Position numbers and translations under genes: made by a program. Shown piece after piece: positions 13,253 to 15,827 of a stretch of 64,000 nt of DNA. The notes under the pieces were generated by a model. That model saw nothing but the letters and a program-made list of their open reading frames with translations, was not told the DNA's origin and ran no database searches. Each line of letters begins with the position of its first letter. Position 1 is the stretch's first letter. This DNA is from Fervidobacterium sp. (GTDB lineage: Bacteria; Thermotogota; Thermotogae; Thermotogales; Fervidobacteriaceae), in NCBI GenBank assembly GCA_026419195.1, contig JANZZV010000008.1, forward strand, positions 1-64,000, in the 5' to 3' direction.

Positions 13253-15181
13253 TTAATTTACCCGATAAAACACTCTTTTTGGATATTCTTCGTTTTGCCT
13301 TGTCTTGTTAAATGACTTTACTGGCACTAAGTAACCAACTATCCTGATGAATTCATCTACTTTGTGTTTGCCACACATTGGACATCTCATACCATAAAAG
13401 GCATGCCCATCTTCACATACATTTATCTTCTGATTAAAAGCAAAATAAACAACCCCCATACTTGCGACAAGATTCACCATATTCCATGCTTCTTCTTCGT
13501 TCCTAAAAGGTGAGTCTAAATTTATGTGCAATATTGCTCCTCCTGAAACTTTTTTATCGTACATACCTGAGTATCGTATTCTGTTCAACATATCTGTATT
13601 AGTTGTTAGTGGCAACCACTGATTGGAATACAAGATGTATTTGGTGCCATACAGTAAATTATCCTTTTGTGCTAGTGTTACTGCTGCTTTCTCTGCTGGT
13701 ACTTGCTCAATATTGAATGTGAATCCGTATATCTCAAAGGCTTCATCGTTTGCTTTGGCAATTTGATTAAGCACATCGAAAATAAACTGCTCACCTTCTT
13801 TTGTGTACTTAACGCCATCTATATCTTCATATGTTAATCCAAGAATCTCACACGCCTCGTATAAGCCGTTTATACCAACTGTGCCATATTGGCGATTCAA
13901 ATCCATCAACCCCAAATTGTACAACGGCAATACACCTTGCTGAATCCTTTCTTGAATTATACTTCTTATTGCCGAAAGTGTTCTATGAACGACACTTAGT
14001 TTTTCCTTGAGCTTGCTCATAAACCCAGCTTTTGATTTAGTCTCTAATGCAATTCTAGGAAGATTTATCGTCACGACTTTGAATGAACCAATGTTTAAGT
14101 CAGAACCTCCAATAGAATTAGACATACCAGCCAATTTCTCAGGTCCTATTTTGAATTTGAGATTTTTTGTTGAACTTGTTAGTCTACAACACGATGCCAC
14201 AGCATCTATACTATCTGAAATATACCAATTTGTATCCTGCCATTTCAAATTAACTTTGTTTATAAACCTTGCACTATCTTCATCAACGAACTTTCCATCT
14301 TTATACAAAAGCGAAGCTGTCAGAACTGGAAATGTGAACATCTGCTTTTCCCTTTCCTGACTGATCCAAAGCCAGTATTCTTTTTGTAGTGCAATTATAT
14401 CTTCCACGTAATCAGTTATAAGTGTTCCATCCGGATATTTCTCACCCTCAAAGATAGTTCTAATGTAATTTCTGTCAAGATACGTAAAATTTGTATAAGG
14501 TGACTGAGTACCACGGATAGGTTGATTGATAGAATATGTGAATATCTGGAAATGCTGATGGAGATATTGTTTTTTCTGATCTTCCGGAATAATTCCAGCC
14601 TTCAGATCTTTATTGTAAAAATAAGCAAGCCAGACAAAAAAGTCAGGTAAACCAACTGCCCCTGATTGCTGGTTGGAGGCAAACATTACAAACTGTATTA
14701 CATGTTGTATAAACGAAGAAAGATGCTTTGCAGGCACCGATTTGATGCTATCGATAAAAAACAACCCTTTTTCAACTATTAATCGTAGCGAATAAGCATA
14801 GCAATATGGTTCGAATGCAGCGTGATGCGCATCGTGCAGATATATATCGCCATAAAGCTGGTATTTTAAAAATTTTTCTGCCTCTCGCTGTCCAAATAAA
14901 TCTTTCATTCTCTCGTAAACATAGTAAAGCGAATACAACTTAGACCATGGTTTTACAACTTCATTGAAATAAGTATAAACGTTTGTGCTTCTAACATTTG
15001 CGTTTGAATCTATCGATGAATCCAGTATGCCGTTGTTGAAAAAGTGCTTTGTGAATTTATTAATATCAAGCTGCCAACCTAGACCTTCGAGTTCTAAAAG
15101 CTTCTCTGGAGTCTTTTTGAACTCTTCAACAAAATCAGGAGAAAAACTCATTAATGATAAAAAATTTAATAATTCTGACAT
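13253..15181 (-). CDS. nrdD: anaerobic (class III) ribonucleoside-triphosphate reductase
   Basis: This oxygen-sensitive glycyl-radical enzyme makes deoxyribonucleotides. The 642-residue product ends with a zinc-site-like region (VCEDGHAFYGMRCPMCG) and the glycyl-radical loop RIVGYLVP, the glycine being residue 616, instead of the usual R-x-CGYLG. No ATP-cone is seen at the N-terminus. Cysteines are few: one in EPYCYAY, a pair in VASCCRL, one in YEACEIL, and the C-terminal group. The Thermotoga maritima enzyme, prototype of subclass IIIh, lacks a pre-positioned active-site cysteine, and this protein is probably its relative. ATG 15181 follows GGGGGAG; an ATG five codons earlier is less likely. 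The start overlaps nrdG by 16 bases. Confidence 0.93.
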   Translation of the reverse strand: MSELLNFLSLMSFSPDFVEEFKKTPEKLLELEGLGWQLDINKFTKHFFNNGILDSSIDSNANVRSTNVYTYFNEVVKPWSKLYSLYYVYERMKDLFGQREAEKFLKYQLYGDIYLHDAHHAAFEPYCYAYSLRLIVEKGLFFIDSIKSVPAKHLSSFIQHVIQFVMFASNQQSGAVGLPDFFVWLAYFYNKDLKAGIIPEDQKKQYLHQHFQIFTYSINQPIRGTQSPYTNFTYLDRNYIRTIFEGEKYPDGTLITDYVEDIIALQKEYWLWISQEREKQMFTFPVLTASLLYKDGKFVDEDSARFINKVNLKWQDTNWYISDSIDAVASCCRLTSSTKNLKFKIGPEKLAGMSNSIGGSDLNIGSFKVVTINLPRIALETKSKAGFMSKLKEKLSVVHRTLSAIRSIIQERIQQGVLPLYNLGLMDLNRQYGTVGINGLYEACEILGLTYEDIDGVKYTKEGEQFIFDVLNQIAKANDEAFEIYGFTFNIEQVPAEKAAVTLAQKDNLLYGTKYILYSNQWLPLTTNTDMLNRIRYSGMYDKKVSGGAILHINLDSPFRNEEEAWNMVNLVASMGVVYFAFNQKINVCEDGHAFYGMRCPMCGKHKVDEFIRIVGYLVPVKSFNKTRQNEEYPKRVFYRVN

Positions 15182-15729
15182 ACTTTCTCCCCCCATTCCG
15201 TCAAACCTTGCAATATTGGAAGCAGCCTATCTTTTGTTATGTAAACTTGATTTTTTGATGCAGGAAATGAACCTGTATCATATTCTTTGACATACTTTCC
15301 AAGTACGAACTCATCAAAATAATCCAAAGGAATGTCTAAATAAAGTAGCTCTTTGAAACTTCTCCAAGTATACAATATAGTCCTTACACTCTCTCCATAT
15401 TTCTCTTTTACAAACCTTGCAAGCAAATATGCTATTTCTCTATTTATTTTTGTCAAAGGTTCACCCCCGAGCAAGGCAAGGGATATAACTTTGTGTGAAA
15501 TTAACAGCTGCTCAATTTTTCTATCCAAAATTTTTAGAAGATGAGAAAATTCAACTTTGTAAGTATTATCAAATTTCCAAGTTTCAGGGTTGTGACAACC
15601 AATGCACTTAGGAATAGCATCACAACCTTGGAAATAAACGCTAATCGAAGGTAAATTTGGATGATCTCCATAAGTCACCCTCACACTTCTGATAAGCCCA
15701 AAAGAGTTACCAAGCTCTGAAAATACCAT
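15166..15729 (-). CDS. nrdG: anaerobic ribonucleotide reductase activating protein (radical SAM)
   Basis: NrdG uses S-adenosylmethionine and a 4Fe-4S cluster to create the glycyl radical on NrdD. The 187-residue product has the cluster motif spaced as C36-X5-C42-X2-C45 (GCDAIPKCIGCHNPETW), whereas textbook NrdG uses CX3CX2C; the following HNPETW and the glycine-rich LGGEPL motif are normal. ATG 15729 follows GGGGGAG; an upstream ATG at 15783 would add 18 residues unlike the family and begin close to the mapped promoter. nrdG precedes and overlaps nrdD, the reverse of the common nrdD-nrdG order. Confidence 0.92.
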   Translation of the reverse strand: MVFSELGNSFGLIRSVRVTYGDHPNLPSISVYFQGCDAIPKCIGCHNPETWKFDNTYKVEFSHLLKILDRKIEQLLISHKVISLALLGGEPLTKINREIAYLLARFVKEKYGESVRTILYTWRSFKELLYLDIPLDYFDEFVLGKYVKEYDTGSFPASKNQVYITKDRLLPILQGLTEWGEKVCQNY

Positions 15730-15758: not shown

Positions 15759-15774
15759 TAACTTTATATTGTGT
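15759..15774 (-). promoter_or_regulatory. NrdR box, promoter-distal copy
   Basis: On the plus strand TAACTTTATATTGTGT matches 13 of 16 positions of the NrdR consensus acaCwAtATaTwGtgt. Its centre is 31 bp from the second box, the spacing expected for cooperative NrdR binding. It would lie just downstream of the transcription start. Confidence 0.75.
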
Positions 15775-15789
15775 CTTTGACAATATGCA

Positions 15790-15805
15790 CTACTATATAT
15801 AGTAT
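15790..15805 (-). promoter_or_regulatory. NrdR box overlapping the -10 of nrdG
   Basis: CTACTATATATAGTAT contains the perfect 14-bp palindrome TACTATATATAGTA and matches 13 of 16 NrdR consensus positions. It covers the -10 hexamer, so binding of NrdR with dATP would block RNA polymerase. Confidence 0.8.
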
Positions 15806-15827
15806 CACAAATGGACCGGAAAGTCAA
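15799..15827 (-). promoter_or_regulatory. nrdGD promoter
   Basis: On the minus strand TTGACT (-35) and TACTAT (-10) are separated by exactly 17 bases. Start codon of nrdG is 70 bases downstream of the -10. Confidence 0.8.

Follow-up and report, generated by a model that had tools for sequence, protein, structure and literature searches.

A probable NrdR operator at the promoter of nrdG-nrdD, the class III ribonucleotide reductase genes of Fervidobacterium sp.

In the Fervidobacterium sp. genome studied here, two palindromic boxes at the nrdG-nrdD promoter very probably constitute the NrdR operator of this class III ribonucleotide reductase operon. They lie within a stretch of 64,000 nucleotides (hereafter the window). 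The boxes are read in this way because their core pair is perfect and unique in the genome, an intact nrdR gene is present, pairs spaced by 30-31 bp are conserved in relatives, the class II gene nrdJ is preceded by a pair of its own and the spacer measures 15 bp. At nrdG-nrdD, the boxes, their spacing, the overlap with the promoter, the conservation and the intact nrdR gene were observed directly.

Boxes, promoter and target genes

Both boxes were scored against the 16-bp consensus ACACWATATATWGTGT and match it at 13 of 16 positions, each with three mismatches. The box TAACTTTATATTGTGT (positions 15759-15774, no strand assigned) is located in the predicted nrdG leader, and the box CTACTATATATAGTAT (15790-15805, likewise without strand) is distal from the nrdG start on the promoter side. 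The conserved C and G of the NrdR box (C4 and G13) are present in both. The box centres are 31 bp apart, which corresponds to about three helical turns, and the spacer of 15 bp falls inside the range of 14-17 bp known for NrdR binding (PMC12051234). Thus, the paired 13/16 boxes of the original prediction were recovered at the same coordinates and with the same distance. Moreover, the minus strand carries a promoter TTGACT-N17-TACTAT, consisting of the -35 hexamer (15822-15827), of which TTGAC is kept in relatives of families f1 and f2, and the -10 hexamer (15799-15804), which is also kept in relatives and is preceded by TG, making it an extended -10. As had been claimed, one of the boxes, namely the distal one, covers this -10. 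The operator is located at the predicted -10 of nrdG-nrdD and is thus sited on the promoter of the ribonucleotide reductase operon. An Rfam search of the nrdG leader region gave no match.

The first gene of the operon, nrdG (15166-15729, minus strand), codes for a class III activase of 187 amino acids, with an ATG start and a strong upstream Shine-Dalgarno sequence (GGGGGAG). The top NCBIfam matches of its product are NrdG families, which score under their cut-offs, and Fer4_12 scores above its cut-off. The downstream nrdD gene (13253-15196, minus strand) encodes the anaerobic reductase of 647 amino acids, whose translation includes SCCR and SIGG, sequences that have been discussed for the NrdD of T. 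maritima (PMC4493059). Both genes overlap by 31 bp, and the overlap in T. maritima is 35 bp (PMC4493059). A peptide-pattern scan of the genome contigs for named NrdD relatives gave no match. The search of NrdD for an ATP-cone was also negative; therefore, NrdR may be an important route of dATP feedback on NrdD. In the same genome, the class II gene nrdJ is preceded by a weaker, diverged pair of boxes, which match at 10/16 and 12/16 positions, are 30 bp apart and abut a TATAAT just upstream of the start (L096, about 992-1037). Relatives possess better box pairs than this one at nrdJ, again at 30-31 bp. In the present genome, nrdJ is probably a target of NrdR, too.

The regulator and its proposed action

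The search of the genome for nrdR, on which the original prediction depended, returned one intact copy containing a zinc ribbon and an ATP-cone (TIGR00244, 207.4 bits, above the cut-off). By eye, the neighbouring open reading frames resemble whiA and greA. At the thresholds used, no box pair was found within about 1.5 kb of nrdR, neither in this genome nor in relatives. The protein aligns over its length with solved NrdR chains and retains the four zinc cysteines as well as R12, D15, R17, R26-R29 (RRRR) and R37. The residues matching these arginines and D15 contact DNA in the NrdR of S. coelicolor, and its contacts D15, R17 and RRRR are thus also found here (PMC9110341). In addition, by eye F127, V130 and Y131 would match F124, V127 and Y128 of the reported nucleotide pocket with an offset of three residues.

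Work on other bacteria suggests that NrdR would bind to the nrdG-nrdD operator under nucleotide control and repress nrdGD. When dATP levels rise, NrdR loaded with dATP and ATP would assemble as a tetramer and hold both boxes, three helical turns apart, with its two zinc-ribbon pairs. The bound protein would span the -10 together with the predicted start site and the early part of the transcribed region, so that RNA polymerase would be blocked. When dATP levels fall, NrdR would be loaded with ATP and unable to bind, and the operon would be expressed. The control had originally been described as exerted by dATP; this wording is refined here because the DNA-binding form of S. coelicolor NrdR requires dATP plus ATP and neither nucleotide suffices alone (PMC9110341).

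The geometry agrees with that of experimentally tested operators (PMC12051234; PMC9110341) and is kept upstream of nrdG in relatives, which bears out the claim that the arrangement is a known one for NrdR. For instance, the nrdRJ operator of S. coelicolor also consists of two boxes three turns apart, with conserved G-C pairs at distances of 9 bp within a box and 31 bp from box to box (PMC9110341). However, S. coelicolor belongs to a different phylum and its nrdR gene heads the operon (PMC9110341), whereas the nrdR gene of the present genome is located elsewhere and lacks boxes. Paired boxes also precede the ribonucleotide reductase operons in E. coli (nrdDG) and Listeria, with spacers of 15-16 bp (PMC12051234); these systems differ from the present one in gene order and enzyme subfamily (PMC12176259; PMC12051234). 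RegPrecise, as quoted in PMC4493059, predicted NrdR control of nrdD, nrdG and nrdJ in eight Thermotogae. The present case resembles that regulon in its regulator family, in the overlap of nrdG and nrdD and in having nrdG, nrdD and the class II nrdJ under predicted NrdR control (PMC4493059). Thus, the nrdG-nrdD site is a correct and ordinary instance of the NrdR regulon, since such control has already been predicted for this bacterial order. The literature collection searched contained no work on NrdR in Fervidobacterium. The site adds a further thermophilic species in support of NrdR control of the class III reductase, and probably of the class II enzyme, via a common three-turn operator; beyond that support it is routine annotation.

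Alternative readings of the paired boxes

It could be argued that the boxes arose by chance, as A+T-rich palindromes at a -10 region of the ordinary kind. Indeed, the -10 itself supplies TACTAT, and single boxes are background and uninformative in this genome of 35% G+C: the window contains three sites at 13/16 vs 1.87 expected, and the genome-wide pattern search yielded 52 single boxes vs 60 for the reversed-pattern control. The best single match in the genome, with two mismatches, lies inside a histidine-kinase-like open reading frame; the next-best one is also within an open reading frame, and GTACTTTATATTGTGT, considered as a single box, is inside a radical-SAM-like one. However, first-order Markov models, with the single-site rate squared, predict only about 0.006-0.008 pairs of at least 13/16 at 30-32 bp per 2.06-Mb genome, i.e. 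fewer than 0.01, and fewer than 1e-6 for the intergenic region upstream of nrdG. Pattern searches of the genome with the 12-base core pair at the nrdG-nrdD spacing retrieved the nrdG-nrdD site as the one match without mismatches and a single further match with three mismatches, vs eight matches within three mismatches for a control pattern. At 30 bp, seven core pairs were found in the whole genome, each with three mismatches. Moreover, the geometry is kept in relatives despite diverged flanks, and an origin by chance is very improbable. Similarly small is the probability that the boxes serve a different repressor recognising A+T-rich palindromes, such as a redox regulator. The target enzyme is indeed anaerobic, and many repressors could use palindromes that overlie a -10, but the consensus, the phasing of 30-31 bp and the recurrence at the class II nrdJ in this and related genomes specifically fit NrdR.

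A further reading takes into account the addA-like and addB-like helicase/nuclease genes, which are divergent and located on the plus strand. A promoter-like sequence TTGACA-N17-TAGTAT facing addA (15777-15805, plus strand, 10/12) shares bases with the distal box and with the nrdG -10; it is the top plus-strand promoter match between the boxes and addA and is not conserved in relatives. The pair might therefore mainly control addA-addB, instead of or besides nrdGD. However, tblastn of the regions flanking nrdG in relatives detected no addA, yet the pair remains at nrdG; no pair was found in the addA upstream regions of seven relatives, where the best sums are 17-20 of 32; and the plus-strand TTGACA sits in the non-conserved spacer. 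Control mainly of addA-addB is thus unlikely, and we consider it quite unlikely, too, that the operator also serves to control these recombination-repair genes in this species. If it did, dNTP supply would be linked to double-strand-break repair via the NrdR operator. The overlap of the distal box with a possible promoter towards addA is a mild twist of this site, and co-repression of addA is possible, though weakly supported, in the present genome.

Conservation of the NrdR operator in relatives

Among 61 genomes, nrdG was located in 24. In eight Fervidobacterium genomes, including the present one, the boxes of the best-scoring pair in the roughly 450 bp upstream of nrdG are 30 or 31 bp apart, and the same holds for the second nrdG of one of them. 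Outside the genus, the same distance separates the boxes of two genus g2, one family f2 and eight family f3 genomes. Overall, pairs at 30-31 bp occur throughout Fervidobacterium and in five other genera. In one genome of family f6, the nrdG pair is tied between 30 and 32 bp. Across Fervidobacterium, g2 and f2, the identity of the boxes averages 0.79 and 0.60 vs about 0.35 for spacer and flanks, values that are lowered by the inclusion of the mis-anchored locus L024. Of all elements upstream of nrdG, the equivalent of the distal box is conserved best, and TTGAC is found at a near-constant distance from this box. Most relatives have stronger boxes, with sums of up to 28 of 32, than the present genome (13+13).

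Two registers can be distinguished. In one, seen at the nrdG genes of families f1 and f2, the distal box contains the -10 and the leader contains the second box. In the other, seen at nrdJ and at the nrdG genes of the Thermotoga-like family f3, it is the second box that adjoins the -10, with the first box further upstream. In either register, an NrdR tetramer on the boxes would leave no access for RNA polymerase.

In genus g5, no pair was found directly upstream of any of the four nrdG genes, and nrdG is located closely 3' of nrdD in at least two of these loci. The genes nrdD, nrdG and the class II nrdJ adjoin in this genus (L036, L037, L038 and L039, with L088, L089, L094 and L105), which suggests that both reductase classes are encoded in one operon. 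One Fervidobacterium genome (G003; L021, L041) possesses two copies of nrdG-nrdD, each with its own paired boxes, at 31 and 30 bp, respectively. In another genome (G021; L040/L042), the nrdG match on a short contig is split in two, with the parts in different frames; this is a frameshift or an assembly error, and the upstream box pair is intact.
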